Positions 65 to 18,047 of a stretch of DNA of 64,000 nucleotides are shown here, piece after piece. The stretch covers positions 1-64,000 of the forward strand of contig NZ_JACHJQ010000003.1 in the NCBI RefSeq assembly GCF_014203735.1, given 5' to 3'. The DNA is from Actinophytocola algeriensis (GTDB lineage Bacteria; Actinomycetota; Actinomycetes; Mycobacteriales; Pseudonocardiaceae). A program made the position numbers and the translations under genes. Numbering within the stretch: position 1 is the stretch's first letter; each line of letters starts with the position of its first letter. The notes below the pieces were generated by a model, which did not search any database, was not told the origin of the DNA, and saw only the letters and a list, made by a program, of their open reading frames with translations.

Positions 65-178
65 CACACCAGCACCTGGGATGTCTTTCACGGCACACCA
101 GCCCCGTCCCGGCACGGGCGATCACCGTCGGCTGGCCGGACCCGCCGCAGGACCCGGCAAACGTTGGTGGACACAGCG

Positions 179-1297
179 CTAGCGGCGCTGGGCCAGCCAG
201 GCCTGTTGCAGTAGCGACATCGACGGCGCGTGCGGTGTGGGTGACAACCAGTTGTCGCGTAACGCTTCCGGGTTCACCAGGTCGGTGTCGACGCCGGTGC
301 CGTTCCACCTGCGGGCGAAGTCCCGGGTGTGGCGGGTGAAGACCGCGTTCGCGAACAGGGCCTTCGAGCGGCGTTCCAGTACTTCGCGGGGGAGGAGGTC
401 GCCGAACAGGGAGCGCATGGTCGCCGCTCTGCCGGTCCAGCCCAGGAATCCGCCTGCCGCGGCCACCGCAGCCACCATGGCGGGTTCCGCGAAGGCCTGT
501 ACGTACGTCACGTCCAGTTCCGCAGCCAGGGCCCGCACCGTCTCGTAGCCGATCCGCGCGCTGCGGCGAGTGGCGAACTGCCACGTGTTGCGGCCCGCGT
601 GCAGGGAGAACGCCGTCAGGTCTGCCGCGTCCTTGCGGGCCAGGTCGGCTTCCACGTCCGGGTGCAGCCACGGTCTCCGGTAGCGGTCCCGCAGCGCCGA
701 TCGTCTGCGCAGTGCCGCGGGGGCCAGTGCTTTCGGCACGTCCGCGTAGACCCGCGGGGAGGCTCGTCCCCTTGACTTCAGGATCTTTGTCAGTGGGGTC
801 ACGCGTTTCAGGCCGAACGCCTCGTCGCCGCCTTCGCCCGTGAGGAGGGTGCCACCCCGTGCCATCGACAGCATGCGGAGGGTCGGGGCGATGTTCGGGG
901 GCCAGATCAGGCCGTGGCGTCTCAGTATGGGGGTGGCCACCGGGCCCAGTGGGTCGTGCTCGTCGTGGACTGTCAGGACCACGCGGTGGGTCAGGCCGAG
1001 GTGGGTCAGTACCGCCTGTTGCCACTCCGACTCGTCGGTGTCGGCGGCGTCCGGGTAGGACAGTGTGATCGGGGTGGGCAGCGGGAGGCCTTCCCTGCGG
1101 GCCAGTGCCACCGCGGCTGCCAGCAGTACCGACGAGTCACGGCCGCCCGAGAACGCCACCAGGCACGGGGACTTCCGCAGGTGAGGTCGCAGCAGCTCGG
1201 CCAGGACCGTCCTCGGGGTGCCTGGCTCGGGCATGGGTAACGGCTCGTAGCCGTTCACCCAGCCTGCCGCCACCTCCAGCGGGTCCATTGTGTACAT
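179..1297 (-). CDS. lasso peptide macrolactam synthetase (C protein), asparagine-synthetase-like, short form
   Basis: This 372-residue protein is the synthetase half of an asparagine synthetase B. The ATP-pyrophosphatase loop SGGRDS lies at residues 50-55 and a GEGGDEAFG motif at about 154-162. In lasso pathways this enzyme adenylates an Asp/Glu side chain of the core and joins it to the free N-terminus. The ATG at 1297 follows AGGAG at a normal distance. It lies 55 nt downstream of the lasso precursor gene on the same strand, so the two are probably co-transcribed. Unlike the usual lasso cyclase of about 600 residues, there is no N-terminal glutaminase-like domain, and no room for one before the precursor. 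A primary-metabolism asparagine synthetase is unlikely given the neighbours. Confidence 0.88.
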   Translation of the reverse strand: MYTMDPLEVAAGWVNGYEPLPMPEPGTPRTVLAELLRPHLRKSPCLVAFSGGRDSSVLLAAAVALARREGLPLPTPITLSYPDAADTDESEWQQAVLTHLGLTHRVVLTVHDEHDPLGPVATPILRRHGLIWPPNIAPTLRMLSMARGGTLLTGEGGDEAFGLKRVTPLTKILKSRGRASPRVYADVPKALAPAALRRRSALRDRYRRPWLHPDVEADLARKDAADLTAFSLHAGRNTWQFATRRSARIGYETVRALAAELDVTYVQAFAEPAMVAAVAAAGGFLGWTGRAATMRSLFGDLLPREVLERRSKALFANAVFTRHTRDFARRWNGTGVDTDLVNPEALRDNWLSPTPHAPSMSLLQQAWLAQRR

Positions 1298-1352
1298 CGA
1301 GCTGCTCCTTCGAGTGGTGACGGGTCCGGCGCAGGACCCGTCACCAACCGGC

Positions 1353-1493
1353 TCACGAGTAGTCGTCGTTGTCGCCGAGGATCGGGAGGATCCACGTCAG
1401 GTTGTCGCTGGACTGTCCGAACAGGTTTGCCTGGGTCAGGTCCGACAACGTCCCCAGTGCGGTGATCTCCGGCGCTTCGTAAGGCTGGCGCAT
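1353..1493 (-). CDS. lasso peptide precursor (A peptide)
   Basis: This 46-residue ORF begins with ATG at 1493, preceded by AGGAGG. The leader (residues 1-21, from MRQPYEAPEI) carries the Y-x-x-P-x-(L/I)-x-x-x-G pattern as Tyr5, Pro8, Ile10 and Gly14. It has Thr20 at the -2 position that lasso proteases require. Cleavage after Gln21 gives a 25-residue core whose first nine residues are ANLFGQSSD. The only acid at positions 7-9 is Asp9, so the predicted ring joins Ala1 to Asp9. The tail continues through Trp13 and Pro16 and ends GDNDDYS. The acidic end with a final Ser resembles the kinase-modified lasso peptide paeninodin. The cyclase lies downstream, the exporter is divergent, and B1, B2 and a kinase lie a few kb away. 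Family assignment is strong; ring and phosphate are predictions. Confidence 0.9.
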   Translation of the reverse strand: MRQPYEAPEITALGTLSDLTQANLFGQSSDNLTWILPILGDNDDYS

Positions 1494-1597
1494 GCTTTCA
1501 CCTCCTCATGGTGTGACTGGTACGTCGTCGATCTCTGCGATTCATTACCTACCGGGACGGTCTGGTCGGTAACGAAAGCTGTACGTAATCGGACCTA
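1494..1597. promoter_or_regulatory. divergent promoter region between lasso precursor and exporter
   Basis: This 104-base gap separates the precursor (leftward) from the ABC exporter (rightward) and is visibly less GC-rich than its flanks. It must hold both promoters. The precursor has a strong AGGAGG ribosome site at its left end. The exporter has no clear ribosome site before ATG 1598, so it may be leaderless or start at ATG 1604. I could not fix -10/-35 boxes with confidence. Confidence 0.5.
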
Positions 1598-3349
1598 ATG
1601 AACATGCGCCGGTTGGTGAAGACCCCACGACTGATCGCCGCCGCCGCACGGGAGGTGCGGCGGGCCGACAGGGGTGGCACCCTGCTCGCGACCTTCTACC
1701 AGCTGCTGGGAGCCGTTGCGGCGCTTGGTGTTGTGGCGGCAGGGAAGTTGACCTTCGACGCTCTGCTCACGCCCGATCACGCGGCGGTCGGTCTCACCCC
1801 GGCTCTGTTGCTGCTGGCGCTCGCCACCGCCGTCTCCGGGTCCGTCGGTCCACTCCAGACACAGCAGCACCGCATCCTCGGCGAGCGGGTGTCACAGCGC
1901 GTGTGGGACCGGTTGCTCGACACCACCGCGCGTGCCGATCTCGTCACCTACGAGTCGACCGGTTTCGCCACGGCACTCGAACGGGTACGACAGCACGCAC
2001 TCACGCGACCCTTCGCCGTCACCGCCGCGTTGCTGGGGCTCACCGGGAGCCTTCTCGGGGTGACGGCCATGTCCGTCGTGCTACTGGCAGTTGAGCCGCT
2101 ACTCCTGCCGCTGCTGCTCGCCGCGGGGATTCCCGCTGTCCTGCTCGCACGGTGGGCCAGTCGTACCGAGTTCGCGTTCGCCCATCGGCTCACCGCCTTG
2201 TTCCGGCGGCGGCACTACCTCCAGGAGCTGCTCACCCAGCGGCCCTACGCGGCCGAGGTGCGCGCCTTCGACGCGACGGGCCCGCTGCGGGCCAGGCACG
2301 ACGCGCTCAACGCCGACGTGAACGCGGCCCTGAGCAAGCAGGTCCGGCGCAGGCAACTGATCGCCGCGCTCACGACGTTGGGGGTGGCGACCGCCCTGAC
2401 CGGCGCCCTGCTGGCGATTGTCCAACTGGTACAGACCGGGCGCATCGACCTCGCCGAGGCCGGGGCCGCCGCGATCGCCGTGCGCCTGCTCAGCGGGCAG
2501 CTTGGCACGTTGTTCGGAGCCATCGGCGGACTCCTCGAGTCGGCGCCGTTCCTCGCGGACCTGGAACGGTTCGTCGCGAGTGGACCCGAGGCCGGGCCTC
2601 GCGGACACAAGCACGACCTCGTCGACCGGGTGTCGTTGCGGGGTGCGCGGTTCAGCTACCCGGGACTGGAGCGGCCCGCGGTCGACGGTGTCGACCTGGA
2701 GATCCGCGCCGGTGAGGTCGTCGCGCTCGTCGGCGAGAACGGGTCCGGCAAGACGACCCTCGCCAAGATCGTCGCGGGACTGTACGAGCCCGACGACGGC
2801 GTGCGCCGCTGGGACGGGACCGCCATGCCAGCGCCCGACGTGCGTGCCTCCGTCACCGTGATCTTCCAGGACTTCGTGCGGTACCAGATGACCGTGCGCG
2901 ACAACATCGTCATCAGCGGCGACGGTGTCGACCCCGAGGCCGCCGCGCGGTCCGCCGGGCTGCTGCCGACCGTGCGCGGGTTGCCGGACGGCATGGACAC
3001 CATGCTCGGCCGCGATCTCGACGAGGGCGTCGACCTGTCCGGTGGGCAGTGGCAGCGGGTCGCGCTCGCCAGGGCGCTGCACCGGGACACGCCGCTGATC
3101 GTGCTGGACGAGCCCGCTGCCGCGCTGGACCCGCGTGCCGAGCACGAGCTGTTCACCAACGTGCGGGCCACGCTGGGCGGGCGAGCCGCTTTGTTGATCT
3201 CGCACCGGTTCTCGAGCACGCGGATGGCCGACCGGATCTACGTCATGGACGCGGGGCGGGTCGTGGAGTGCGGCACGCACGACGAGCTGATGGCCGCCGC
3301 CGGGCAGTATGCTGAGCTGTACCGGCTGCAGTCGGCGGCCTACCGCTGA
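1598..3349 (+). CDS. lasso peptide ABC exporter, fused permease/ATPase (D protein)
   Basis: This 583-residue half-transporter has an N-terminal membrane domain with about six hydrophobic segments (residues about 20-310). A C-terminal ABC ATPase follows, with Walker A GENGSGKTT near residue 380, signature LSGGQWQRVALARAL near 480 and Walker B LIVLDEP near 500. In lasso clusters the D protein exports the mature peptide and gives self-protection. It is transcribed divergently from the precursor, which supports that job. The start is ATG 1598 or 1604; neither has a good ribosome site. A general multidrug exporter would look the same, so the substrate is inferred from context. Confidence 0.85.
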   Translation: MNMRRLVKTPRLIAAAAREVRRADRGGTLLATFYQLLGAVAALGVVAAGKLTFDALLTPDHAAVGLTPALLLLALATAVSGSVGPLQTQQHRILGERVSQRVWDRLLDTTARADLVTYESTGFATALERVRQHALTRPFAVTAALLGLTGSLLGVTAMSVVLLAVEPLLLPLLLAAGIPAVLLARWASRTEFAFAHRLTALFRRRHYLQELLTQRPYAAEVRAFDATGPLRARHDALNADVNAALSKQVRRRQLIAALTTLGVATALTGALLAIVQLVQTGRIDLAEAGAAAIAVRLLSGQLGTLFGAIGGLLESAPFLADLERFVASGPEAGPRGHKHDLVDRVSLRGARFSYPGLERPAVDGVDLEIRAGEVVALVGENGSGKTTLAKIVAGLYEPDDGVRRWDGTAMPAPDVRASVTVIFQDFVRYQMTVRDNIVISGDGVDPEAAARSAGLLPTVRGLPDGMDTMLGRDLDEGVDLSGGQWQRVALARALHRDTPLIVLDEPAAALDPRAEHELFTNVRATLGGRAALLISHRFSSTRMADRIYVMDAGRVVECGTHDELMAAAGQYAELYRLQSAAYR

Positions 3350-3368
3350 TCGCCATGTGGGGGCACTG

Positions 3369-3743
3369 ATGCGCGTGACGATGGGGATCGCGGGGGGCCT
3401 CATCCTTTGTGTGATCGGCTACCTGGTGTATGCCGCCGTGGTGTTCTGGATCAAACAGCCGATGGGCGAGCCGGCCCCATCCGCGCCGTACACGGCGCGA
3501 ACGCTGGCAGGACGACTCGACTTCGCCATGACCGACCAGGAGATCACCGATGAGGCGGCCAAGCTGGAAGGGTCGATCGTCGAGCTCCACCGCAAGGCTG
3601 ACGAAACGGTCGTGCTCGTCCGGGTTCCCGCCGCAGAGCCCGGACCGACTTCGGACGCCTGCTATCGGTTCCGACTGCGAAACGGCGACGTCGGCCACCA
3701 TGTAACGGGATGCCCGGACACGCCACCGACCTCCTATCGCTGA
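3369..3743 (+). CDS. small single-pass membrane protein of unknown function
   Basis: This ORF of about 124 residues starts at ATG 3369, 19 nt after the exporter stop, and is probably co-transcribed with it. One hydrophobic segment near the N-terminus (residues about 5-27) is followed by a soluble, mostly extracytoplasmic domain with two Cys residues (DACYRF and VTGCPD). I do not recognise a family. Its position directly after the exporter suggests a role linked to export or immunity, but that is only a guess. Its 3' end overlaps the convergent small gene 3734-3907 by 10 nt. Confidence 0.65.
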   Translation: MRVTMGIAGGLILCVIGYLVYAAVVFWIKQPMGEPAPSAPYTARTLAGRLDFAMTDQEITDEAAKLEGSIVELHRKADETVVLVRVPAAEPGPTSDACYRFRLRNGDVGHHVTGCPDTPPTSYR

Positions 3744-3907
3744 CGTTCGATCGGTAGCCAGACCTCCAGGCACGGCCAGCCCACGCCGCACGCGAGGCAC
3801 AGGCCCGAGCGTTCGCCCGGGCGGTGTTCGCGGAGGGTGTGGACGAGGAGTTCGTACTGGGCGGTCGCTTCCAGGACGCCGGACTCACTCCGCCGATGCC
3901 TGCCCAC
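3734..3907 (-). CDS. small Cys-containing protein (57 aa)
   Basis: The frame from GTG 3907 to TAG 3734 encodes 57 residues and is too short for usual ORF cut-offs. It contains LCLACGVGWPCLEVW, a C-x2-C-x5-C cluster of the kind seen in many tiny actinobacterial proteins that accompany XRE/DUF397 regulators. The start overlaps the end of the 71-residue gene 3885-4100 by 23 nt, so the two look translationally coupled. The codon pattern and coupling support a real gene. Function is unknown; metal binding is possible. Confidence 0.6.
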   Translation of the reverse strand: MGRHRRSESGVLEATAQYELLVHTLREHRPGERSGLCLACGVGWPCLEVWLPIERQR

Positions 3908-4100
3908 GCTCGTCCATCTCCCCCAGGGCGGTCGCGCCGAAGCGCAGGAACTCGCGGAGCGCGGTGGCGTCGAAGACGAACTCGAACGGGTCGCGCAGGC
4001 CGCCGAAGGAGAACTCGACGGTGTCGCTGTCCACGACGTGGTAGCGCATGGGGCAGTGGTCTCGAATGGTGACGTAGGAATTCACGCTCAGGCCTGTCAT
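3885..4100 (-). CDS. conserved small protein next to XRE/DUF397 regulators (71 aa)
   Basis: This 71-residue protein starts with MTGLSVNSYV and contains an FSFGGLRDPFEFVFDATALREF segment split by no gaps. It has no membrane segment and looks like a small folded domain. It is divergent from the XRE regulator at 4160 and is followed by the coupled 57-residue Cys protein. Small proteins of this kind commonly flank XRE-DUF5753/DUF397 pairs in actinobacteria. I cannot assign a biochemical role. Confidence 0.65.
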   Translation of the reverse strand: MTGLSVNSYVTIRDHCPMRYHVVDSDTVEFSFGGLRDPFEFVFDATALREFLRFGATALGEMDERGQASAE

Positions 4101-4159
4101 GCGATCAGACGCTACGCTTCTTCGGGACCCAACAGATCGAATTGCCAGGGGTGACAGGA

Positions 4160-4984
4160 ATGAGTAGGAACGACCCGCGTGCGCGTGACCGCATCATCGG
4201 AGCAAAACTGCGGGCCATTCGCACGGACCGGGCGGATATTTCACTCGAACGTGCTGCCGAGATGGCCGGCTGGGCGCCCAGCCGGCTCAGCCGGACCGAG
4301 CGCGGACTGCGGCAGGTGACTATCGAGGAGGTGGCGACTCTCCTTACCGCATGGCGGATTCCTGTCAGAGAAAGGGAGGGGATGCTGGCAGACGTTCAGG
4401 CCGGATCCGGATCGGGGTGGTGGGATCGCTCGCTGCCGGGCGTTCCGAGCTACACGGGGGCGTTGGCGAGTTACGAGGCCGACGCGATTGAGTTGGTGAA
4501 CGTTGCCGTCGCGGTTACTCCGGGTCTGTTGCAAACCTATGAGACGGCGATCGCGGCAATGCGCGCCGACGGTGTTCCGGAGGAGGATATGGAGACGCGC
4601 TGGATGGTTCGCCTGCGGAGGCAGCAGATTCTCGGCACAGTCGAATATTCGGCCTACATCACCGAGTCGACGTTGCGGACGCCATTCGGCGGTCCGAAGG
4701 CGTCGCGGGACCAGTTGGAGCAACTTCTTGTCGCACAGGACAGGGGGATGGGGGTGCGGGTGATCCCCGCGCACCAGACGAAGGTCCTGCTTCTGCATTC
4801 GTGGATGTGGATGGCGTTCCCGAACACGAAGCCGGTAGTTCACGTCGAGCTGGCCTCGGGGGCGTTCTTCCTCCACGACGATGATGCGGCGCGCTACACG
4901 CAGATGTTGGATCGGCTGCGAAGGGTGGCCCTGTCGCGGGACGACAGCCGTATGCTGATCAGTGGTCTGATGAAGGAGTTGTGA
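4160..4984 (+). CDS. XRE-family regulator with DUF5753 domain
   Basis: This protein of about 274 residues has an N-terminal helix-turn-helix (residues about 8-70, containing SLERAAEMAGWAPSRLSRTE) followed by the DUF5753 domain typical of WhiJ-like actinobacterial regulators. ATG 4160 is chosen because an AGGGG site lies at good distance; TTG 4142 and GTG 4151 are longer options in frame. The stop is followed after 2 nt by a DUF397 gene, the usual partner. The pair sits between the two halves of the lasso cluster. It could control it, or it may be an unrelated regulator/toxin-antitoxin-like pair; published work on such pairs supports both kinds of role. Confidence 0.85.
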   Translation: MSRNDPRARDRIIGAKLRAIRTDRADISLERAAEMAGWAPSRLSRTERGLRQVTIEEVATLLTAWRIPVREREGMLADVQAGSGSGWWDRSLPGVPSYTGALASYEADAIELVNVAVAVTPGLLQTYETAIAAMRADGVPEEDMETRWMVRLRRQQILGTVEYSAYITESTLRTPFGGPKASRDQLEQLLVAQDRGMGVRVIPAHQTKVLLLHSWMWMAFPNTKPVVHVELASGAFFLHDDDAARYTQMLDRLRRVALSRDDSRMLISGLMKEL

Positions 4985-4986
4985 GC

Positions 4987-5142
4987 ATGTGGCGTAAGTC
5001 GAGCAAGAGCGACTCGGGTGGCCAGTGTGTTGAGGTTCGGTCGGATCTTGGGGCGTTGCGGGACAGCAAGCAGCCCGGCGGGCCTGCGCTGGTCACGCCG
5101 GAGTTAGGCGCTCTGATCAAGCGGTTGAAGAGCGGCCAGTAG
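4987..5142 (+). CDS. DUF397 domain protein
   Basis: This 51-residue ORF from ATG 4987 to TAG 5142 begins MWRKSSKSDSGGQCVEV, the DUF397 signature, and contains the typical LRDSKQPGGP segment. It follows the XRE regulator by 2 nt. DUF397 proteins act with their XRE partner, probably by direct binding. Its last 39 nt overlap the convergent end of the kinase gene (5104-6012), so the two transcripts are antisense to each other there. Confidence 0.85.
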   Translation: MWRKSSKSDSGGQCVEVRSDLGALRDSKQPGGPALVTPELGALIKRLKSGQ

Positions 5143-6012
5143 GTCCGCCAGCACGCCGTCCGCGAAGGGCGGGCCCCACGGGATCGCCGCTTCGAAGACC
5201 GGCACCCGCTCCACCAGGTCCCCCAGTCCCTGGAACGTCGTGGCCATCGACGCCGCGTCGCTCCAGCCCAGCACCCTCGGGTAGCGGCTCAGGCGCAGCA
5301 ACGCTTCCGCCGTGCCCAGGCGCCTCAACGCCACCTCCGTGACGTCTCGGCTTGGCCTTGGGACTACGCACGCTGCCAGCGGGAGCGGGGCGTCGACCAG
5401 CGCTGTCGGGCGTAGGGCCAGGCGGCCGTCGGCTGTCTCGTACGTGTCGCCGCTGGCGAGTTCGCGGGCGTTCTCGCGGAGGCGGTTCTCGGTGGCGCCC
5501 GGGTGGACCATTCCGCCGTCCACGCGCAGGAGGTCGTCGGAGACCAGGCTGCAGCCCAGGCCGCACAGGGCGGCGGCGAGGGTCGACTTGCCCATGCCCG
5601 ACGAGCCGACGAACGCCACCGCCGAGCCGCCGATGTCCACCGCGCTGGCGTGCAGGACCAGTGCGTGGTGGAGCATCAGGTGCACGGCCAGCACGGCACC
5701 GGAGATCAGGACCGGGAGCAGGCCTTCGTCGGCGCCCGGGTGCAGGTGCACCGTGACGTGTTCGAGCTTCGGGTCGCCCTCGAAGTCGCAGAGGCCCGGG
5801 TAGCGGAGGATCGTCCGGGGGCCTCTCGCGAGGGTGTAGAAGATCGTGCGGTCCGGGCGGGAGACCTCTGCCAGCCGCTCGCCTTGGGGACGCTCGTGCG
5901 GGACCTCCCGGTCCTCGCCTCGGCGCAGGACCAGGGTCGGGACGCCGCCGCCGGGTGGGAGCGGCAGGGGGATGTCGCTGGCGATGTGGAGGCCGTAGGC
6001 GTGGTAGTTCAT
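5104..6012 (-). CDS. HPr-kinase-like lasso peptide kinase
   Basis: This 302-residue protein resembles HPr kinase/phosphorylase. It has LHASAV at residues 120-125, a P-loop GSSGMGKS at 136-143 and an SDD metal-binding motif at 158-160. It lacks the N-terminal domain of true HPr kinases and the size fits lasso-associated kinases, which phosphorylate the C-terminal Ser of the precursor in paeninodin-type pathways. ATG 6012 overlaps the TGA of the B2 protease gene by 4 nt, which fixes the start and ties it to lasso maturation. The precursor here does end in Ser. Kinase family is clear; substrate is inferred. Confidence 0.85.
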   Translation of the reverse strand: MNYHAYGLHIASDIPLPLPPGGGVPTLVLRRGEDREVPHERPQGERLAEVSRPDRTIFYTLARGPRTILRYPGLCDFEGDPKLEHVTVHLHPGADEGLLPVLISGAVLAVHLMLHHALVLHASAVDIGGSAVAFVGSSGMGKSTLAAALCGLGCSLVSDDLLRVDGGMVHPGATENRLRENARELASGDTYETADGRLALRPTALVDAPLPLAACVVPRPSRDVTEVALRRLGTAEALLRLSRYPRVLGWSDAASMATTFQGLGDLVERVPVFEAAIPWGPPFADGVLADLLAALQPLDQSA

Positions 6013-6419
6013 GCCGTCCCCAGGGTCGCGTAGCGGGCCGACTCGGGGTCGAGGGTCCGGCCGTCGATCTCCAGCCAGGAGTGGGCCACGAACTCGCCGC
6101 TCTCGTCCCGGCGGACGCCGATGCGCAGCACCGGGCCCAGGTGGCGCAGGCGCCGGCCCAGGACCAGGCAGCGGCGCAGGCACGTGTTCCCCGGCGGCCA
6201 GTGGGCGACCGCGTACTGGCAGGCGTACACCGGGGTTCTGGTGGTGCGGGGCAGTACCGCGCGCTCGGTCGCCGGTGGGGCGGCGCTGCGGACGTCGCAG
6301 GCGATGCCGAGCAGGCGGCAGACCGCCGGGAGGTCGCTGCGGCGCAGACCCCGTTCGATGCGGGTCAGCCAGAACAACGCTCTCAGCAGCTCCAGTGCGA
6401 ACCGTGCCCGTCGCCTCAT
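6009..6419 (-). CDS. lasso peptide leader protease (B2, transglutaminase-like)
   Basis: This 136-residue protein has the lasso B2 fold motifs: Cys80 in PPGNTCLRRCLVL, His113 in AHSWLEIDG and Asp119 as the triad. It removes the leader after the -2 Thr site before ring closure. The ATG overlaps the B1 stop by 4 nt and the stop overlaps the kinase start by 4 nt, so the three genes are translationally coupled. Length matches the family. Confidence 0.9.
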   Translation of the reverse strand: MRRRARFALELLRALFWLTRIERGLRRSDLPAVCRLLGIACDVRSAAPPATERAVLPRTTRTPVYACQYAVAHWPPGNTCLRRCLVLGRRLRHLGPVLRIGVRRDESGEFVAHSWLEIDGRTLDPESARYATLGTA

Positions 6420-6667
6420 GCCAGCAGCCGCGCCTGGTGCAGCCGGTCGACGAACGCCAGCACGTCGCGGCGGGCGGTGGTCTCGTCGACCTCGTACTCG
6501 GCGACGACTGTCGTGACCAGGTCGTCGAGGGTGCGGTCCTCGCCCAGCAGCTCGAACACCCGGCTGCCGACGCCCGTGATGGCGAAATACTGGGAGTTGG
6601 GCAGGTCGAGGACGATCGTCTCGCCGCCGATGGTGCGTGCGGAGATGTCTGTGGTGCGCAGTCGCAT
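6416..6667 (-). CDS. lasso RiPP recognition element (B1, PqqD-like)
   Basis: This 83-residue winged-helix PqqD-like protein contains the segment VLDLPNSQYFAITGVGSRVF, typical of split lasso B1 proteins. It binds the precursor leader at the Y-x-x-P motif and delivers it to B2. It is the first gene of the leftward unit B1-B2-kinase. The promoter should lie in 6668-6818, shared with the divergent PAP2 gene. Confidence 0.9.
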   Translation of the reverse strand: MRLRTTDISARTIGGETIVLDLPNSQYFAITGVGSRVFELLGEDRTLDDLVTTVVAEYEVDETTARRDVLAFVDRLHQARLLA

Positions 6668-6818: not shown

Positions 6819-7481
6819 ATGTCCGTGCTCGCGGCGATTGCCTTGGTGGTCATGGGTTTCGTGTTCGCCGGTCAGTCCGCGGGGGCGGCCGTCGACATCG
6901 GCGTGCGGGAGGAGTTGCGGCAGCTCGGGTCGACGTGGCGGCAGCTCGCGCTGGCCGTCGACTGGCTCGCCGAACCGGTGGGCGCCGTCGTCGTGCTCGG
7001 CACGTGCGTGCTCTTGTTCCTGCGTGCGCGCAACCGGTTCGCCGCGGTGCTGGTGGTGGTCGCGCCCGCCGCGGTCGTCGTGGTGACCACCGGCATGAAA
7101 CCGTTGACAGGACGGACGATCAACGACGGGTTCCTGGCGTTCCCCAGCGGGCACACGGCTTTCCTGGCCGCTGTCGCGCTGGTCGTGACACTGTCCGTGG
7201 CGCGGCGGCTCGTGGTGGTCATGGTGGTGACCCTGGCTGCCGGGCTGGCGATGGCGTGGGCGCAGGTGCTGCTCAACGCGCACTACCCGACCGACACGCT
7301 CGGCGGGTTCTGCGTCACGCTCGCCGTGGTGCCCGTCGTGGTGCTCGCCCTGGACAGGATTTGGACGGTCGCCAGCCGCGCTGCCCCTGCTGCGGCGGAC
7401 GACCGTCCTGACGGGAACCCTCTCCCTGCGCGCGGCGGCGCACCAGCCGTGCCGCCGTCACCGAGTGCTACCCACGACTGA
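6819..7481 (+). CDS. PAP2-family membrane phosphatase
   Basis: From ATG 6819 this is about 220 residues with five or six membrane segments and the PAP2 motifs: KPLTGR, PSGHTAF and HYPTDTLGG. Such enzymes dephosphorylate lipid phosphates, for example undecaprenyl pyrophosphate or phosphatidic acid derivatives. The start is uncertain, since in-frame GTG codons lie upstream to about 6730. It diverges from the lasso B1 gene. An envelope-lipid role is general for the family; a link to lasso immunity is speculative. Confidence 0.8.
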   Translation: MSVLAAIALVVMGFVFAGQSAGAAVDIGVREELRQLGSTWRQLALAVDWLAEPVGAVVVLGTCVLLFLRARNRFAAVLVVVAPAAVVVVTTGMKPLTGRTINDGFLAFPSGHTAFLAAVALVVTLSVARRLVVVMVVTLAAGLAMAWAQVLLNAHYPTDTLGGFCVTLAVVPVVVLALDRIWTVASRAAPAAADDRPDGNPLPARGGAPAVPPSPSATHD

Positions 7482-10625: not shown

Positions 10626-11921
10626 TCAGGCGAACGGGCGGAACACCGGCTTCACGGGACGGCCACCGAGCCACGGCGACGGGTCACCCGCGTCCAGCGC
10701 CTGGCGGTACACCGCGCAGGCGTCGGCCACGACCTCGACCGTGCGGTCCAGGTCGGCGTCCGTGAGGGCGCTGCTGACCACGAACGACGGGCCGACCACA
10801 CCACCCAGGATCAGCCTGCGCAGGAACAGCGTCCGGTACTCCTGAGACGGCCTGCCGTCAACGTCGAGGGTCGCGAAGACCAGGTTGCAGTCGCGGCCGC
10901 GGACCACCACGTGCTCGCCGACCCCGGCCGCCGCCGCCACCTCGCGCACCCCGGCGGCGAGGCGGGCACCGATGGCGTGGAGGCGGTCCGCGATGCCCTC
11001 CTCCACATAGGTGTCCATGACGGCCATCGCGGCGGCGAGCGAGTGGGTCTCGCCGCCGTGGGTGGTGGACAGGAGGAAGACGCGTTCGCGGGAGTCGCGC
11101 AGGCCGCCCAGTTCCATCAGGTCGCGCCTGCCTGCCAGCGCCGACACAGCGAACCCGTTGCCGAGCGCCTTGCCGAACGTCGACAGGTCCGGGGTCACGC
11201 CGTACAGACCCTGCGCGCCCGCCTCCGACCAGCGGAAGCCGGTGATCATCTCGTCGAAGACCAGCACGACACCGTGACGGGTGCACAGATCGCGCAGGCC
11301 CCGCAGGTATCCGGGTGGCGGGTCGGTCTGCGTGGCGGCCTCGAGCACCAGGCACGCGACCTCGTGCGAGGTGAACAGCTGCTCGACTGCGGCGAGATCG
11401 CCGTATGGGAACGAGACGACGTCCTGTGCCGGGATGCCGGCGGACATCGCGGTGGTGCCGATGAACCAGTCGTCCGTGGAGAAGAACGGCTGGTCCGCGC
11501 ACAGCGCGATCGTGGTGCGCCCGGTCGCGGCACGCGCGAGGCGGACCGCCGCGGTCGTGACGTCCGAGCCGTTCTTGGCGAACTTGACCATCTCCGCGGT
11601 AGGCACGGTCGCGAGGAACTTCGCGGCCGCCTCGACCTCCAGCGCGGCCGGCCGCACGAAGTTGCCGCCCAGTGCCAACTGCGCGCGCACAGCCGAGACA
11701 ACGCGAGGGTGTGCGTGCCCGAGGCTCACCGCACGCAGTCCGGAGCCGTACTCGATGAACTCGTTCCCGTCGACGTCCCACACGTGCGCGCCCTGACCGC
11801 GGACGAACACCGGGGCCATGCCCTCCGGGTACTGGTCCTCACCCTTGGCGTAGGTGTGGCTACCGCCGGGCACCATGTCGTGGAGGTTCTTGTTCGCCTC
11901 GCGGGAACGGGTGAAGTCCAT
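10626..11921 (-). CDS. class III aminotransferase, glutamate-1-semialdehyde mutase-like
   Basis: This 431-residue PLP enzyme has the class III features: FDEMITGFR (cofactor Asp) and STFGKALGNG with the Schiff-base Lys near residue 268. It resembles glutamate-1-semialdehyde aminomutases, but it is the last gene of a polysaccharide operon, where such paralogues are thought to aminate sugar or small-molecule precursors. Its gene follows the RfbC-like epimerase by 6 nt. It is not the haem-pathway HemL on context. The exact substrate cannot be read from the sequence. Confidence 0.8.
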   Translation of the reverse strand: MDFTRSREANKNLHDMVPGGSHTYAKGEDQYPEGMAPVFVRGQGAHVWDVDGNEFIEYGSGLRAVSLGHAHPRVVSAVRAQLALGGNFVRPAALEVEAAAKFLATVPTAEMVKFAKNGSDVTTAAVRLARAATGRTTIALCADQPFFSTDDWFIGTTAMSAGIPAQDVVSFPYGDLAAVEQLFTSHEVACLVLEAATQTDPPPGYLRGLRDLCTRHGVVLVFDEMITGFRWSEAGAQGLYGVTPDLSTFGKALGNGFAVSALAGRRDLMELGGLRDSRERVFLLSTTHGGETHSLAAAMAVMDTYVEEGIADRLHAIGARLAAGVREVAAAAGVGEHVVVRGRDCNLVFATLDVDGRPSQEYRTLFLRRLILGGVVGPSFVVSSALTDADLDRTVEVVADACAVYRQALDAGDPSPWLGGRPVKPVFRPFA

Positions 11922-11927
11922 CGGTCC

Positions 11928-12473
11928 TTACGTCCTTCCGAGTGCCGCCGCCAGTGTCGGCGCCTGCCGGTCCCGCTGCGACAACAGCGCGGGCGGCAAC
12001 GGCCACGGGATCGCCAGCTCGGGGTCGTCGAAGGCGATCGCCACGTCCTCCGCCGGGTCGTGCGGCCGATCGATGCGATAGGACACGTCGGCGGGGTCGG
12101 TGAGCGCCTGGAACCCGTGCGCGCAACCGGCGGGCACGTACAGCGTCACCTGTGTATCGCCGGAAAGCTCCAGATGTTTCTGGTTCCGGAAGGTGGGCGA
12201 GTCCGGTCGCAGGTCGACGATGACGTCGAACACGCGGCCGTACGAACAGCGGACCAGCTTCGCCTCCCCGCGCCCGGACCGCAGGTGCATCCCGCGCAGG
12301 ACACCGCGTGCCGAGCGCGACACGCTGTCCTGCGCGAAACCGTCCGGGTCGATGCCGGCGGACCGCACGACCTCCGCGTCGAACGTGCGGCAGAAGAAGC
12401 CGCGCTCGTCGGCGTGCGGCGACGGCTCGAACACGTACGCACCGGCGATCTCGGGCACGGGGATGGCTTTCAC
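11928..12473 (-). CDS. dTDP-4-dehydrorhamnose 3,5-epimerase-like protein
   Basis: This cupin of about 181 residues has RfbC-type motifs: DERGFF, RGMHL (catalytic His) and VPAGCAHGF. It would epimerise a 4-keto nucleotide sugar. GTG 12473 is preferred over 12494, because a GGGAG site lies 8 nt before it and it nearly abuts the methyltransferase stop. It lies between the methyltransferase and aminotransferase genes of the operon. The partner pathway starts from CDP-glucose, so the substrate may be a CDP rather than a dTDP sugar. Confidence 0.8.
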   Translation of the reverse strand: MKAIPVPEIAGAYVFEPSPHADERGFFCRTFDAEVVRSAGIDPDGFAQDSVSRSARGVLRGMHLRSGRGEAKLVRCSYGRVFDVIVDLRPDSPTFRNQKHLELSGDTQVTLYVPAGCAHGFQALTDPADVSYRIDRPHDPAEDVAIAFDDPELAIPWPLPPALLSQRDRQAPTLAAALGRT

Positions 12474-12474
12474 G

Positions 12475-13266
12475 TCATTCTCCCTTGGACGCAAGGAAAT
12501 AGGCGTAGCGGCGGTCCAGCTCGTTCTCCGGGACGAGAACGACGTTCTCCGGCCGCAGGCCGCACTTGGCGACCAACTGCCAGAACTCGGGGACGGAGTA
12601 GGTGGTCATGCCCGCCACGCTGGTGCGGTAGCCGCGGCGGCGTGGGCGCGTCCAGAAGTCACCTTCGTGGTACTTCACCTGGATCAGCGCCAGTCCGCCC
12701 GGCGCGAGCACGCGGGACGCGATCCGCAGCAGGCGTTCGCCGTACTCGGGGGTGGGGATCAGTTCGAACAGGTAGAAGCAGAGGAACAGGTCGCAGGTGC
12801 CGATCTCCTCGACGACCCGCTCGGGACGCGTGACCTCCGCGAGCACCGGTGTGAACGGGGTGTCGCAGTGCGCGGTCACCTGCCGTGCGCACTCCTCCAG
12901 TGTTTCCGGCACCACGTCGACGCCGACGAACTCGGCCGCCCTCGGTGCGAAGTGGACAGCGTTGGCGCCGCCGCCGCAGCCCCACTCCACCACGCGCCCC
13001 AGCGGGCGATCGAACCCGACCCCGCGTGCCCCGCGGTCGAACATCTCCAGGTGCCGCTTGCCGATCTCGTGCCACAGGTCGCCGTCGTCGAAGACGTGTG
13101 CGCCCCGCCAGTGCGAGTTCGCCTTCCACGACGCGCTTCCCGTCGACGCCCAGTAGTCCTGGGCGTCCGCGGCGATCCGGGACTCGGACTGGGACAGCCC
13201 GACCCGCGTGAGGACCCGCTGTACGAGGTCCTCGGCCCGGCTGCCCGCCTGCCGCACACATGCCAC
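12475..13266 (-). CDS. class I SAM-dependent methyltransferase
   Basis: This protein of about 263 residues has a SAM-binding glycine motif VVEWGCGGGANAV and an acidic second strand EFVGVDVV. The family is Methyltransf_11/25-like. The GTG start at 13266 is a choice between several: TTG 13320 and GTG 13257 are also possible, and none has a strong ribosome site. It follows the pyruvyltransferase gene in the polysaccharide operon. It probably methylates a sugar or lipid-linked intermediate. Confidence 0.78.
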   Translation of the reverse strand: MACVRQAGSRAEDLVQRVLTRVGLSQSESRIAADAQDYWASTGSASWKANSHWRGAHVFDDGDLWHEIGKRHLEMFDRGARGVGFDRPLGRVVEWGCGGGANAVHFAPRAAEFVGVDVVPETLEECARQVTAHCDTPFTPVLAEVTRPERVVEEIGTCDLFLCFYLFELIPTPEYGERLLRIASRVLAPGGLALIQVKYHEGDFWTRPRRRGYRTSVAGMTTYSVPEFWQLVAKCGLRPENVVLVPENELDRRYAYFLASKGE

Positions 13267-13316
13267 AACACTCGGGGGACGAACCGACCCGTGCCGCCGT
13301 CGTCCAGCCCTGAAGT

Positions 13317-14516
13317 TCAAGAACCCACCTCCTGTGTCACCTCCGCCGGCATTCCCAGTGATGCCGACAACACTTCGAACTGCCGCGCGAGACGCGCGGA
13401 CTTGCGTGCCGCATGCTCGCCAAGCATGGGCCCGATCCGGTCCGCGGCCGCCTCGACCGCGGTGAACTGTTCGACCAGCCGGTCCACGTCGACGGTCCTG
13501 GCGTCCTGCGTGTACTCCGCAAGGCCCATGTCCGCCATGATCCGGTCGTTCTTCGCCGAGTAGCTGACCGAGATGGTCGGCTTCGCGAGCTTCAACCCGC
13601 ACAACACGTTGTGGTAGCGGGTGCCGACCACCACCTCGGACTTCGCGATCTGTGCCATCACGTCGCCGAGGGTCCTGATGGTCTCGTACGTCACCGCGCC
13701 GGGGCGGTCCTTCGAGTCGGCCAGCACCTGCTCGACGATCGCCTCGTCCACCTCGTCGCCGATGAGCAGCCGCACGCGGTGGCCGCCGTCGACCAGCCAG
13801 CGGACGAACCGCCGCATTCCGTCCACATAGGTCCGGTGGATGGCCTCGGCGCTGGCGCGATCGTCGTTGCTGCCGTGGAAGTCCATCAGACCCACCGCGA
13901 CCGTGCCGCGCTCCACGGTGACCTCCGGGGCAGGCAGGGCGAACACGAGGTCCGGGAAGATCTCGTCGCGGGCGGTGTCCACCCCCATGGTGGCGAGCGC
14001 GTCGCGGGACAGGCTGTCGCGGAAGGATCGGTAGTGCGCGAGGCGGGTGGCCCAGCGGATGAAGAACCGCATCGCCCGCTGCCTGATCACGTTGGAGCCG
14101 ACGTTGACGAACGCGACCTTCGTGCCGGTGAGCCTGCCGAAGAAGCTGAGCAGGAACAGCGACAGCGGAAAACCCCACGCCCGCAACGGAAGCGTGTTCT
14201 CCAGCACGCCGGCGCCCGGCACGATCACCACGTCGTTGCGCCGCACCCAGCGCCACACCTGTGCCGCGTCGCGGAACTTGGCGACCGACTTCAGCACGAC
14301 CCGCGCGGGCAGGCCGGAGTCGCGGTCCCGGGTGTAGTACGAGTAGAGCGGGACGGCCGGGACGCCGTAGCGCGCCTCGACGACGTCCGGACCGGAGGCC
14401 AGGGCGCTCAGCTCGGCCGACGGGTGGTGCTCGCGCAGGTAGGCGAGCACGACCTCCAGTGAGCCGTCGTTGCCCATGTTCCCGGCGCCGAGCAACCCGA
14501 ACAGACCGACCTTCAC
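13317..14516 (-). CDS. polysaccharide pyruvyl transferase family protein
   Basis: This 399-residue protein belongs to the WcaK/CsaB family, which adds ketal pyruvate from phosphoenolpyruvate to surface sugars. It starts GLFGLLGAGNMGNDG and contains the family segments VGTRYHNVLCGL and ISVSYSAKNDRIM near the C-terminus. GTG 14516 overlaps the glycosyltransferase stop by 4 nt, fixing the start. Pyruvylation usually gives a negatively charged envelope glycan. Some family members have other activities, so the reaction is likely but not certain. Confidence 0.85.
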   Translation of the reverse strand: MKVGLFGLLGAGNMGNDGSLEVVLAYLREHHPSAELSALASGPDVVEARYGVPAVPLYSYYTRDRDSGLPARVVLKSVAKFRDAAQVWRWVRRNDVVIVPGAGVLENTLPLRAWGFPLSLFLLSFFGRLTGTKVAFVNVGSNVIRQRAMRFFIRWATRLAHYRSFRDSLSRDALATMGVDTARDEIFPDLVFALPAPEVTVERGTVAVGLMDFHGSNDDRASAEAIHRTYVDGMRRFVRWLVDGGHRVRLLIGDEVDEAIVEQVLADSKDRPGAVTYETIRTLGDVMAQIAKSEVVVGTRYHNVLCGLKLAKPTISVSYSAKNDRIMADMGLAEYTQDARTVDVDRLVEQFTAVEAAADRIGPMLGEHAARKSARLARQFEVLSASLGMPAEVTQEVGS

Positions 14517-15445
14517 CGGTGCGCTCCCCTCGGCACGATGCCGTCGATCGACAGGACCTGGTTCTTCGGCGCGACCGCGGGCCTGCTGTCGGCGCTCACG
14601 ACCTTGCGCGTCACCCTGCTGCTCAGGTACTCGGCCAGGTGCCGGTAGCACGTCCGCTTCTCGGCGGCGCTGATCGGCGCGCGGCGGATCAGGCCGACGT
14701 ACCCGAGCGCGTACTCGGCGAGCAGCCGGGGGGCCGGGTTGAAACCCGTGGCGCGCTTGGGGTCGAGGTTCGCGCAGCGGCTGCGGATGCTCGGGTTGGC
14801 GCGCTCCGCGCGGTTCTCGTGGTCGCGGCGGAAGTACAGCAGCTCCGCCACCTGGTGGAAACGGCCCTGCATGGCCATGTCCATCACGAACGTGCGGTCG
14901 GCGTGGTGGTAGCTGTCGTGCGGCTTGACGCGGCGCAGGTCCGCCGTGCGGATGACGCCGTAGAAGTCGTCGCCGCCGGGTGCGTGCAGCAGGCCGCGGA
15001 ACCGTTCCGCCGCGGACGGCGAGTCGGTGGGGATGCGGTAGTCGTACGGCTCGATGATCTTGCCGTGGCTGTCGATCGTCGCGTTGTAGGAGTGCGCGAG
15101 GACGAAGTCCGGGTTGTCGTCGAGGAACTCGACGCAGCGTTCGAGCAGCGTGCGGCCGTAGAGGTCGTCGTGCGATGCCCACTTGAACAGCTCGCCGCTG
15201 GCGAGGGTGAACACGTGGTTGTGGTTGCCCGCGGCACCGATGTTCCTCGGCAGGCGGTGGTAGCTGATGCGGGAGTCGGCCTTCAGGTACCGCTTGCAGA
15301 TGCCCGCGGTGCCGTCGGTGGACGCGTTGTCGGTGATGATCAGCTCGTAGTCCTCGAAGGACTGGCCGAGCAACGCGTCGAGCGACTCCGCGAGGTACTC
15401 CTCGCCGTTGTAGACCGGCAGGCCGATGGTGAGTCTCGGGGTCAT
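14513..15445 (-). CDS. family 2 glycosyltransferase
   Basis: This 310-residue enzyme has the GT-A start VYNGEEYLAESL, then IITDNASTDGT and an acidic WASHDDLY motif near residue 90 in the metal/nucleotide site. It should transfer a sugar from a nucleotide donor onto a lipid-linked glycan on the cytoplasmic side. The ATG at 15445 overlaps the flippase stop by 4 nt. It is the only plain glycosyltransferase in the operon, so further ones must lie elsewhere if the repeat unit has more than two sugars. Confidence 0.87.
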   Translation of the reverse strand: MTPRLTIGLPVYNGEEYLAESLDALLGQSFEDYELIITDNASTDGTAGICKRYLKADSRISYHRLPRNIGAAGNHNHVFTLASGELFKWASHDDLYGRTLLERCVEFLDDNPDFVLAHSYNATIDSHGKIIEPYDYRIPTDSPSAAERFRGLLHAPGGDDFYGVIRTADLRRVKPHDSYHHADRTFVMDMAMQGRFHQVAELLYFRRDHENRAERANPSIRSRCANLDPKRATGFNPAPRLLAEYALGYVGLIRRAPISAAEKRTCYRHLAEYLSSRVTRKVVSADSRPAVAPKNQVLSIDGIVPRGAHR

Positions 15446-16701
15446 GAGGTCCTCGATTCGGCAAGGTTCGGGAGTTCGGGTTCGGGAGTGTGCTCGCGCA
15501 GCGCCGCGCGCAGTTGCAGCCACCACAGGCCCGCGCCGAGCCACATGGCGGTGGTGGAGCCCCAGCTCATGCCGACCGCGCCACCCAGCCACGCGCCTGC
15601 CAGGCCGAAGCCGAGGTAGCCCGAGGACGCGACCAGCTGTGCCCGCAGGCTTCTGCGTGCCGCACCGAGTGCGCGGAGCCCGGCCGCCGCGCCCGCGACG
15701 ACACCGGCGCCGGTGACCGACAGGGACACCGGCAGGATCAGCGGCTGTGCGTGCGTCCAGACGTCGTCGAGCACGAGCCTGCCGAGCGCGTCCGGCACGA
15801 GGAACAGCAGGATCACGCCCCAGGTCGCGGCCGCGACGGCCTGCACGCCACCGAGGGTGAGGCAGAAACGGGCGAGTCTTCCTGGGGCTCTGCGCAGGAC
15901 GCGAGCCGCTTCCGGCACCGCGACCAGGTTCAACCCCATGAGCAGCGCGAGGAACGGGCCGAGCAGCAGCTCCGCGCCGCGGATCGCGCCGACGTCCGCG
16001 AGACCGGCGATCGCGCCGAGACCGTACATCCGCAGCTGGGACGCGCCGGAGTTGCTGACGTTCTCGACGAGGTAGCGGGAGCCGAGGTCGCGGTGCGCGT
16101 GCAGCCAGTCACGGATGCCGCTGAAGTGCGGCGTGATCCCGCTCTGCAGCCAGCCGCACCCGGCGGCGAGCAGCGACGCGCCACCCCAGGCGAGCACGAA
16201 ACCCCACACGGTGCCGTGCAGGGAAGCCAGCAGCAGCAACGGGATCATGGTGACGGCCCACACGACGTCGTTGACGAACGCCTTGTGCCCCGCACCGGCC
16301 GCGAAGAACGCGAACCGCCAGCTGTCCTGCAGCAGCATGCCGGGTGCGACGACCGCCAGCGCGACGAACGCGTCCCCCAGCGTGCCGCCCATGGCGAACC
16401 CGGCGAGCGCGGAGACCACGCCGAACGCGGCGCCCACGGCGATCGCGGTACCGGCGGCCCGTGACGTCGCGTGCCGCCAGTCCGCTGTGGACACCCCGCT
16501 GAACCGCACGACCAGCGGGTCGGTGGCGAGACCGCGGGAGACGTTGAGGACGACGCCGTAGGTGACCCAGGCGAGGCTGAAGATGCCGAACGCGGCGACG
16601 CCGAGTTCGCGGGCGACGAACACGCCGACCACGAAGTTCGTCATGCTCGACACGGCCTGGTCGCCGAGCCCCCACGTCAGACGCCGTGCGATGCCACCCA
16701 A
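15442..16701 (-). CDS. Wzx-like polysaccharide flippase
   Basis: This 419-residue protein is almost entirely hydrophobic with about 12 predicted membrane segments, in the MOP/polysaccharide biosynthesis exporter superfamily. The start is typical: an amphipathic helix, then SSMTNFVVGVFVARELG. It would flip lipid-linked glycan units to the outer face. The gene ends overlapping the glycosyltransferase start and begins 1 nt after the DUF4910 gene. Assignment rests on topology and context. Confidence 0.83.
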   Translation of the reverse strand: MGGIARRLTWGLGDQAVSSMTNFVVGVFVARELGVAAFGIFSLAWVTYGVVLNVSRGLATDPLVVRFSGVSTADWRHATSRAAGTAIAVGAAFGVVSALAGFAMGGTLGDAFVALAVVAPGMLLQDSWRFAFFAAGAGHKAFVNDVVWAVTMIPLLLLASLHGTVWGFVLAWGGASLLAAGCGWLQSGITPHFSGIRDWLHAHRDLGSRYLVENVSNSGASQLRMYGLGAIAGLADVGAIRGAELLLGPFLALLMGLNLVAVPEAARVLRRAPGRLARFCLTLGGVQAVAAATWGVILLFLVPDALGRLVLDDVWTHAQPLILPVSLSVTGAGVVAGAAAGLRALGAARRSLRAQLVASSGYLGFGLAGAWLGGAVGMSWGSTTAMWLGAGLWWLQLRAALREHTPEPELPNLAESRTS

Positions 16702-16702
16702 G

Positions 16703-17956
16703 TCACGCCTCTTTCAGGAGACCGGCCGCGTGCAGTGCGTCCGCCGCCGCGGCCACCGAGGGGAACGGGAGCCGGGCCCGGTCGGCGATCGCGAGCAGGT
16801 CGTGGTCACCGTCGGACAGGTTCAGCACCCACAGCATCGCGAGCTGTGCGTCCTTCGCGTCGCTGCGGCCACCGAGCGACTCGTACAGGCCACGCTTGCC
16901 GAGCTGCGGCTCCCCGTACGGGCTCAGGTTGACATAGCGCCGGTTCCGGTCGAGGACGTCGACCGCCTCCCGGCACACCGTGAGCGTGTCCACCATGGAC
17001 TCGGGCGTCACGAAGTCCGGGTTGTCGCCGGAGGTGTGGTACTCCGGGTAGCCCGCGTACGGGGTGCGGGTGAGCGAGCCGACGCCGAGGTTGTAGCCGG
17101 GTGAGCAGTACTGGCGCTCGTCGTAGCCGTACGGGGAGAACTCGCGGATCTCGTGTGGACGGTCGCGCAGCACGTGGGCGAGGACGCGGTCGATCTCGGC
17201 GTCACCACGGCGGGACTGCTTGTAGGTCAGTGAGCCGCGGTCACCGGCGCAGGCCAGCACGATGCCGTGCTTGACCTTGTCGGCGTCGTTGCGGGCGAGC
17301 CACGTGATCGCGCCGATCGTGCCGGGCGCGAAGATGAAACGATAGGTGTGGTACGGGTTCCGCAGCGACTTCGCCAGCTCCACCGCGACCGCCACGCCGG
17401 CGAGGTTGTCGTTGGCGAGCGACGGGTGGCACACGTGGCAGGACACGATGACCTCGTCCTCGACCTGCCCGGGCACCACGTGCTCGGCGTAGGTGAGCGA
17501 CCCGTCCTCGAGCGTCGAGTCGATGACGACCTCGTAGTCGCCGTCCGGCATCGCGTCCAACGTGGACTGTGCGAGGCAGAAACCCCACGTCGGCGCGTAG
17601 TAGGAGGTGCGGTACGGGACGAGCCACGGCTGTTCTGGCAGCGTGTGCAGGTGGCTGCGCAGCTCCGACAGCGGCATGGTCCGGTCGACGGGCACGCTGT
17701 AGCCGACGACGTGCAGGCTCAGCGCCTGGAAGTCCACGATCCGGCGGCCGTCGCGGGAGATGTGCGCGTCGCGGATGTTCCACTCCTGCGGCACGGTCCA
17801 GTCCAGCACCTGCGTCCCCGTCGGCACCTCGTGCACCGTCAGGTCCAGGTGCTCGCCGACGACGGCCAGTGTCTCGCGCAGGCCGTCGCCGGTGATGCTC
17901 CGGCACAGCGGGTACAACCGCCGCACCAGAGCGTGCATCCGGTCACCCTCAGCCAT
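16703..17956 (-). CDS. DUF4910 aminopeptidase-like protein
   Basis: This 417-residue protein matches the DUF4910/DUF2172 type, an M28-like fold often found in exopolysaccharide and sugar-modification clusters. Visible pieces are the N-terminal LYPLCRSITGDG, then CHVCHPSLANDNLAG with metal-ligand-type His and Asp, and a winged-helix-like C-terminus. It may be a hydrolase on an acylamino or peptide-linked sugar; that role is not established. ATG 17956 lies directly after three 31-bp repeats, the nearest of which supplies its GCGGAG ribosome site. Confidence 0.8.
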   Translation of the reverse strand: MAEGDRMHALVRRLYPLCRSITGDGLRETLAVVGEHLDLTVHEVPTGTQVLDWTVPQEWNIRDAHISRDGRRIVDFQALSLHVVGYSVPVDRTMPLSELRSHLHTLPEQPWLVPYRTSYYAPTWGFCLAQSTLDAMPDGDYEVVIDSTLEDGSLTYAEHVVPGQVEDEVIVSCHVCHPSLANDNLAGVAVAVELAKSLRNPYHTYRFIFAPGTIGAITWLARNDADKVKHGIVLACAGDRGSLTYKQSRRGDAEIDRVLAHVLRDRPHEIREFSPYGYDERQYCSPGYNLGVGSLTRTPYAGYPEYHTSGDNPDFVTPESMVDTLTVCREAVDVLDRNRRYVNLSPYGEPQLGKRGLYESLGGRSDAKDAQLAMLWVLNLSDGDHDLLAIADRARLPFPSVAAAADALHAAGLLKEA

Positions 17957-18047
17957 GATGTTCGCTCCGCAAGCTGCGCTCAGACATGATGTTCGCTCCG
18001 CAAGCTGCGCTCAGACATGATGTTCGCTCCGCAAGCTGCGCTCAGAC
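17955..18047. repeat. three tandem 31-bp repeats carrying ribosome site and start codon
   Basis: Three identical 31-bp units lie at 17955-17985, 17986-18016 and 18017-18047, each starting ATGATGTTCGCTCCGCAAGC. Read on the minus strand, each holds a GCGGAG ribosome-type site followed by an ATG and a short frame (MSERSLRSEHHV). The right-hand unit contains the stop of the epimerase gene. The left end gives the start of the DUF4910 gene. It looks like tandem duplication of a translation-initiation region. Confidence 0.9.

Follow-up and report, generated by a model that had tools for sequence, protein, structure and literature searches.

A predicted lasso peptide gene cluster of the kinase type in Actinophytocola algeriensis and its relatives among Actinomycetota

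Gene content of the locus

The window analyzed here, a stretch of 64,000 nucleotides from the actinomycete Actinophytocola algeriensis (assembly GCF_014203735.1, contig NZ_JACHJQ010000003.1, positions 1 to 64,000), carries at its left end a predicted lasso peptide gene cluster that includes an HprK-like kinase, denoted K. The original prediction, made from the letters of the window, had named a precursor, a cyclase, B1, B2, an ABC exporter, and an HPr-kinase-like protein, and all of these were recovered where it had placed them. The features of the locus are as follows; the last one lies outside the window, on another contig (C11) of this genome.

179..1297, minus strand: C, short lasso cyclase of 372 amino acids (aa) with the asparagine-synthetase-type domain only (Asn_synthase match, pyrophosphate (PPi)-loop SGGRDS)
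1353..1493, minus strand: A, lasso precursor of 46 aa (translation, NF033521, relatives' precursors, dN/dS below 1)
1356..1430, minus strand: predicted core ANLFGQSSDNLTWILPILGDNDDYS (Thr(-2) rule; final Ser in 66/67 K-locus candidates)
1404-1406 and 1356-1358, minus strand: core codons for Asp9 and the C-terminal Ser, respectively
1501..1506, minus strand: ribosome-binding site AGGAGG of A, seven bases upstream of the ATG
1598..3349, plus strand: D, MsbA-like ABC exporter (ABC_tran; best NCBIfam model TIGR02203, under its cut-off)
5104..6012, minus strand: K, HprK-like peptide kinase of 302 aa (invariant motif, predicted fold)
6009..6419, minus strand: B2, leader peptidase (NF033537 over cut-off; ATGA overlap with K)
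6416..6667, minus strand: B1, leader-binding (RRE, PqqD-like) protein (PF05402; ATGA overlap with B2)
C11:628-1740: N, PF14907 nucleotidyltransferase (relatives' gene order)

Precursor A consists of the leader MRQPYEAPEITALGTLSDLTQ followed by the core ANLFGQSSDNLTWILPILGDNDDYS. Its translation bears out the earlier description: a YxxPxI...G leader motif (YEAP), Thr at position -2, Ala1 and Asp9, and Ser as the last residue. The precursor leader (NF033521) and B2 (NF033537) both exceed the NCBIfam cut-offs. Pfam cut-offs are passed by B1 (PqqD, PF05402), B2 (Transglut_core3), and C (Asn_synthase, PF00733; 58.6 bits with a cut-off of 21); B1 falls under both lasso-specific PqqD models (51.8 of 80 bits and 48.3 of 70 bits). 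The locus thereby holds the elements by which lasso clusters are recognized, that is, a YxxP-leader precursor with Thr(-2) and an acidic residue at core positions 7-9, a B1/B2 peptidase, and an asparagine-synthetase-like cyclase. Since the gene set recurs in related genomes together with precursors that resemble this one, and the ratio of nonsynonymous to synonymous substitution rates (dN/dS) of the precursor codons is 0.18 to 0.42 in five close pairs, the cluster is more than a chance assembly. A silent relic was considered and ruled out, the precursor dN/dS being below 1.

The B1/B2 and B2/K junctions are ATGA overlaps, which make translational coupling, as claimed earlier for K and B2, plausible. 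The interval between D and K contains two open reading frames (ORFs) with no family match and a pair of genes for a helix-turn-helix (HTH)-DUF5753 regulator and a DUF397 protein (window 4142-5142); the latter gene overlaps the end of K by 39 bases on the opposite strand. In most Pseudonocardiaceae relatives, D adjoins K at the place where the window has this pair.

The window starts with the first base of contig C3 (genome size 9.7 Mb), and the original prediction overlooked this contig edge. In related genomes, the cluster is accompanied by a conserved gene for N, a protein of about 375 aa from PF14907, an uncharacterised nucleotidyltransferase family. On C11, N is followed by a GT4 glycosyltransferase gene and a Wzy-type gene, an order shared with several relatives. 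Because the window lies at a contig edge and N stands at the start of C11 in the gene order of the relatives, the gap between C3 and C11 probably splits the locus. A dispersed repeat of about 97 bases (window 85-181) reaches to the cyclase stop codon. It has at least 40 matches in the genome, mostly 85-98% identical, two of which extend back to window base 1, and it may be the reason that the contig ends there. The repeat folds no better than shuffled sequences, and an Rfam search of window positions 1-8000 gave no match. Judged from its sequence, the locus is a genuine kinase-type lasso peptide gene cluster, which a contig gap probably interrupts.

The kinase and the C-terminal serine

Residues H121, G136, G139, G141, K142, S143, D159, and D160 of K are invariant in 27/27 aligned kinases. 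This H-G-G-G-K-S-D-D motif shares the spacing reported for the tested kinase BsfK (H148 to D187). K falls under the cut-off of the Pfam HPr-kinase model (27.4 of 33.3 bits) and scores 28.3 of 240 bits with the HPr kinase model TIGR00679. Its structural model (pLDDT 94.1) has phosphoenolpyruvate carboxykinase (PEPCK) as the best fold match and retrieves HprK structures at E 1e-5 to 3e-4. K is thus an HprK-like protein with the His-Lys-Asp-Asp catalytic residues that mark kinase-type lasso peptide clusters. Reviews report that, in the Pade/Thco type, the lasso kinase acts on the linear precursor and phosphorylates its C-terminal Ser.

Close homologues of K (E <1e-50) are present in 21 of 249 Pseudonocardiaceae genomes, the window's own included. 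A scan of the genome collection gave 29 K loci, in Actinophytocola, Amycolatopsis, Prauserella, Qaidamihabitans, Haloechinothrix, and Pseudonocardia, as well as in Tessaracoccus, Nocardioides, Georgenia, Cellulosimicrobium, Smaragdicoccus, and several metagenome-assembled genomes (MAGs), extending the K-type clusters to several further actinobacterial families. A class-level profile search of 394 genomes added 19 genomes with K above 250 bits. G281 and one G322 locus are, judged by length, the same contigs as L113 and L120 and were counted once. The plasmid collection, queried with two K proteins and N, gave no match. Small ORFs with a YxxP leader and a GIGS end were also observed beside more distant K, B1, and N genes in L186 (9132-9245) and L189 (10263-10370). 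These two loci gave a weak B2 match and no cyclase in the motif scan, and are perhaps cyclase-free relatives in Actinomycetota.

The last residue of the precursors was compared in three samples: (i) set A, 33 K loci; (ii) set B, 19 other K loci whose sequences were read only after the final-Ser prediction had been written down; and (iii) a control of 40 K-less lasso loci from the same family, hand-picked and thus non-random, comprising the top-scoring B2 matches and a spread of lower ones. The counting rule was identical for K and control loci and blind to the last residue; it required an acidic residue at core positions 7-9 and Tyr or Phe in the leader. In set A all 39 candidates, from 29 loci, end in Ser. 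In set B this holds for 27 of 28 candidates from 16 loci; the exception, which was left in the count, is an antisense ORF with no lasso leader (L174 6811-6957, minus strand). The control yielded 20 candidates in 20 loci, two of which (L074 and L080) end in Ser. Final Ser is therefore found in 66/67 K-locus candidates and in 2/20 control candidates (Fisher p 1.8e-15); for set B alone versus the control, p is 4.6e-10, and for cores below 50% identity the counts are 20/21 versus 2/15 in K-less loci (p 5.8e-7). Under a looser rule applied by eye, 11 further control precursors were collected, none ending in Ser.

The counting rule found no candidate in 4/33 set A loci (L037, L054, L113, and L117), 3/19 set B loci, and 20/40 control loci. 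When a final Ser was made a requirement, one precursor was found in L117 and an additional one in L119; both were left out of the counts. The earliest precursor patterns also yielded spurious ORFs inside genes, and only the residue-blind rule was used for counting. K-locus precursors found by this rule have a YxxP leader (the rule itself asked for Tyr or Phe), and their cores have no hydroxyl residue in common except the final Ser. The Tessaracoccus core L121 contains a single Ser/Thr, which is its last residue. A separate case is provided by L113, where a 566-aa cyclase with a weak GATase_7 match (under cut-off) occurs together with K, N, and a Ser-ending precursor that the rule missed and that stands outside the counts. 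Since L113 combines a full-length cyclase with K and a final Ser, the presence of this Ser is tied to K rather than to the type of cyclase.

Some loci of this survey have two precursors each, one ANLFG-like and the other GQSSGSRLDADF-like (L040-L048 and L110), and L040-L049 have two short cyclases each, about 40% identical to each other's family. Possibly, these clusters have one cyclase per peptide and a single shared kinase. Four core strings had no occurrence in the searched full-text literature. The control locus L080 (7275-7385) is a kinase-free lasso cluster in a genome of the same genus, with a precursor ending in YS.

The short cyclase, the nucleotidyltransferase, and the glycan genes

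Known lasso cyclases such as McjC retain an N-terminal domain, and the control cyclases agree with this. In the window cyclase, which is short of the customary N-terminal third, the Asn_synthase match begins at residue 42; the start is at 42-67 in five other K-type cyclases, compared with 123-216 in five control cyclases. The cyclase family profile aligns only from residue 201 of E. coli AsnB onward, which leaves the glutaminase domain of AsnB unmatched in the K-type cyclase. The median position of the ATP motif, counted from the earliest start, is 72 in 43 K-locus cyclase ORFs versus 234 in 25 control ORFs, and the ranges touch (49-151 versus 145-290). The lengths of K-type cyclases, 372-655 aa with a median of 407, are upper bounds, as the earliest start codon was used. 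In the cyclase tree, 26 K-type proteins stand apart from nine sampled controls with 100/100 support; only these nine control cyclases, from the 40 loci, passed the motif filter, and L113, the one K locus with a full-length cyclase, failed it. No separate gene for the N-terminal domain was found among the conserved neighbors scanned, which cover part of all neighbors.

The PPi-loop SGGRDS and the GEGGD-type residues are kept in 29/29 aligned K-type cyclases, and given this invariance we take the short cyclase to be probably active. Its model has a pLDDT of 93.7. The fold search retrieved beta-lactam synthetase and asparagine synthetase with TM scores below 0.5, weak matches that are consistent with a cyclase; in a profile search against Protein Data Bank (PDB) sequences (E <=0.01), E. 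coli asparagine synthetase B was the sole match.

The gene for N accompanies K closely. Within Pseudonocardiaceae, 21 of 23 K loci have N at 200 bits or more, the exceptions being the window stretch and the short contig L055. N is also found in 9/10 other K loci and in 0/40 controls (E <=1e-4). Among the 249 family genomes, N (E <1e-30) is present in all 21 that have K, and N without K in two (p 1.5e-28). In the class-level genomes searched, PF14907 occurs in 18/18, sometimes distant from K, a count with no base rate for comparison. The presence of N in the same genome makes a plain phosphate just one possible end product.

Sugar-related genes surround many of these loci. In the window they follow a phosphatase gene on the other side of the cluster:

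6819..7481 (start approximate), plus strand: PAP2-type phosphatase (profile match; beside 18/23 Pseudonocardiaceae K loci)
10626-11921, minus strand: class-III aminotransferase, the first gene of the glycan block (10626..19064)
11928-12458, minus strand: dTDP-sugar isomerase, glycan gene
13317-15182, minus strand: pyruvyl transferase, glycan gene
15442-16644, minus strand: flippase-like protein, glycan gene
16703-17956, minus strand: DUF4910/M28 protein, glycan gene
18042-19064, minus strand: epimerase, glycan gene

Gene calls near the loci come from a coding-score caller, and some shadow ORFs remained. Judged from ORF translations alone, the PAP2 gene adjoins genes for a response regulator of the LuxR type and for a large sensor protein (7600-10475). 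The combination of pyruvyl transferase, class-III aminotransferase, and dTDP-sugar isomerase is present beside 20/23 Pseudonocardiaceae K loci, and each of the three in 0/40 controls. The set is absent from the 10 other K loci, which show weak or partial single matches to pyruvyl transferase (one), isomerase (one), epimerase (three), and glycosyltransferase (two). Glycosyltransferase or sugar-nucleotide genes are close to K in L116, L117, and L119 and, from protein starts alone, in L171 and L179. No glycan-type genes were found near K in L114, and L167 has only a 42-bit pyruvyl-transferase match. The glycan setting could reflect shared descent of one genome region.

Proposed pathway, alternatives, and known systems

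We infer every chemical step of the following scheme, the order of steps, and the threaded fold from the genes. B1 would bind the YxxPxI leader and present the linear precursor to K, which would transfer a phosphate to the side-chain hydroxyl of core Ser25, the C-terminal residue. Cleavage after LTQ by B1/B2 would follow, the short cyclase would activate Asp9 with ATP and join it to Ala1, and D would export the peptide. N may then add a sugar or a nucleotide to the Ser-phosphate, as has been proposed for PsmN. The monoisotopic masses calculated for the lasso form, its monophosphate, and the monophosphate carrying one hexose are 2749.287, 2829.253 ([M+2H]2+ 1415.634), and 2991.306, respectively. 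Given that the final Ser tracks the kinase and that the kinase motif is kept, phosphorylation of core Ser25 is very likely, as the original prediction had it; that earlier reading was incomplete, as the N gene, the short cyclase, and the glycan genes had escaped it. An action of N on the peptide, extending the Ser-phosphate, is a tentative proposal with somewhat less than an even chance. The fuller scenario for Pseudonocardiaceae, in which the Ser-phosphate serves as a handle by which N links the lasso peptide to a sugar supplied by the surrounding genes, giving a glycan-linked or surface-anchored product with its ring closed by a minimal cyclase free of the N-terminal domain, is unlikely in this complete form.

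Several observations weigh against the scheme. The Bsf- and LPP-type kinases are reported to place the phosphate on core Ser3, so the kinase family alone does not fix the site. Two K-less controls (L074 and L080) end in Ser as well, and the final Ser is thus no proof of phosphorylation; the p values overstate independence, as the sequences are related. In the 17 kb read of L037, a K locus from an Actinophytocola MAG, K, B1, B2, and N are kept, but neither a cyclase nor a precursor nor an exporter was found. Two loci bear on N: in the 19.5 kb read from L190, N stands beside intact glycan genes and no lasso gene was found, so that N may act in the glycan pathway and the glycan genes are independent of the cluster; L191 has N, B1, and a partial cyclase and lacks K, B2, and D.

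If K followed its relatives BsfK and LppK in modifying an internal residue, ring Ser7 or Ser8 of the window core would be available; such a target is quite improbable, since the final Ser is the sole hydroxyl residue common to the K-locus cores counted and L121 offers no other Ser/Thr. The product might also be a linear phosphopeptide like those of the Bacillota LPP family, the short cyclase being inactive. The cyclase does lack its N-terminal region, LPP clusters are reported to have K and N with no cyclase, and cyclase-free K/B1/N loci in other actinobacteria point weakly the same way. However, the conserved PPi-loop and GEGGD-type residues, and the fact that short cyclases form a whole clade, make this very unlikely; since the search rule itself demanded an acidic residue at core 7-9, this residue provides no independent evidence against a linear product. 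Finally, the HprK/PEPCK-like fold of K would suit an ordinary HPr-type regulatory kinase located here by coincidence, an explanation that is hardly credible, as K overlaps B2, stays with lasso genes across families, correlates with the final Ser, and is far under the TIGR00679 cut-off.

Phosphorylation of the last Ser is also what the closest known system suggests. Sources on the paeninodin type of Bacillota (PadeK, ThcoK; PMC13381572, PMC8498205, PMC9266682) describe an HprK-like kinase, split B1/B2, an MsbA-like exporter, a C-terminal Ser, an NTP (nucleoside triphosphate) transferase, and a frequent polysaccharide-gene setting, all of which resemble the window cluster, with N on C11 as the putative NTP transferase. 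By contrast, the window has a YxxP leader instead of WxxP, belongs to Actinomycetota instead of Bacillota, and, as a possible further difference, has a cyclase with no N-terminal region. Lacking the WxxP leader and belonging to another phylum, the window cluster falls outside the strict definition of paeninodins in PMC13381572; by analogy, its predicted mode of action is that of paeninodin. Pseudomycoidin of Bacillus pseudomycoides, for which reviews report a hexose on phospho-Ser, has a comparable pair of a kinase (PsmK) and a nucleotidyltransferase (PsmN), the latter a putative counterpart of N, which in the window's genome lies at the edge of another contig. The Bsf cluster of Bradymonas and the LPP family of Paenibacillus are reported to have the same kinase motif and an RRE with the kinase; they differ in the Ser3 site, in that BsfA ends in Asp, and in that LPP clusters have no cyclase and another peptidase. 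Ordinary actinobacterial lasso clusters, represented by the 40 control loci, share the YxxP leader, Thr(-2), and B1/B2/C, but have no K or N match (40/40), retain the N-terminal cyclase region, and mostly have a last residue other than Ser.

According to PMC13381572 (May 2026), paeninodin-like clusters typically contain an HprK kinase and an NTP transferase and often lie in capsule loci of Bacilli; the paper gives paeninodins as restricted to Bacillota and their roles as unknown. In PMC7533575, the genes listed next to lasso clusters of Butyrivibrio are those for a nucleotidyltransferase, an HPr kinase, GT2, and EpsH, and PMC5067487 mentions a proteobacterial kinase cluster. No kinase-bearing lasso cluster of Actinomycetota and no lasso cyclase free of the N-terminal domain were reported in the searched literature, with most subscription papers and supplements outside it. 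What is new here is the spread of kinase-type clusters through Actinomycetota, the cyclase free of the N-terminal domain, and the repeated glycan-gene setting in Pseudonocardiaceae.

In summary, a cyclase of about 370 aa provides a minimal lasso cyclase with which the role of the N-terminal domain of ordinary ones may be probed. An actinobacterial clade with a kinase, N, a C-terminal Ser, and often a set of glycan genes makes the suspected link between phosphorylated lasso peptides and surface polysaccharides testable in a second phylum.

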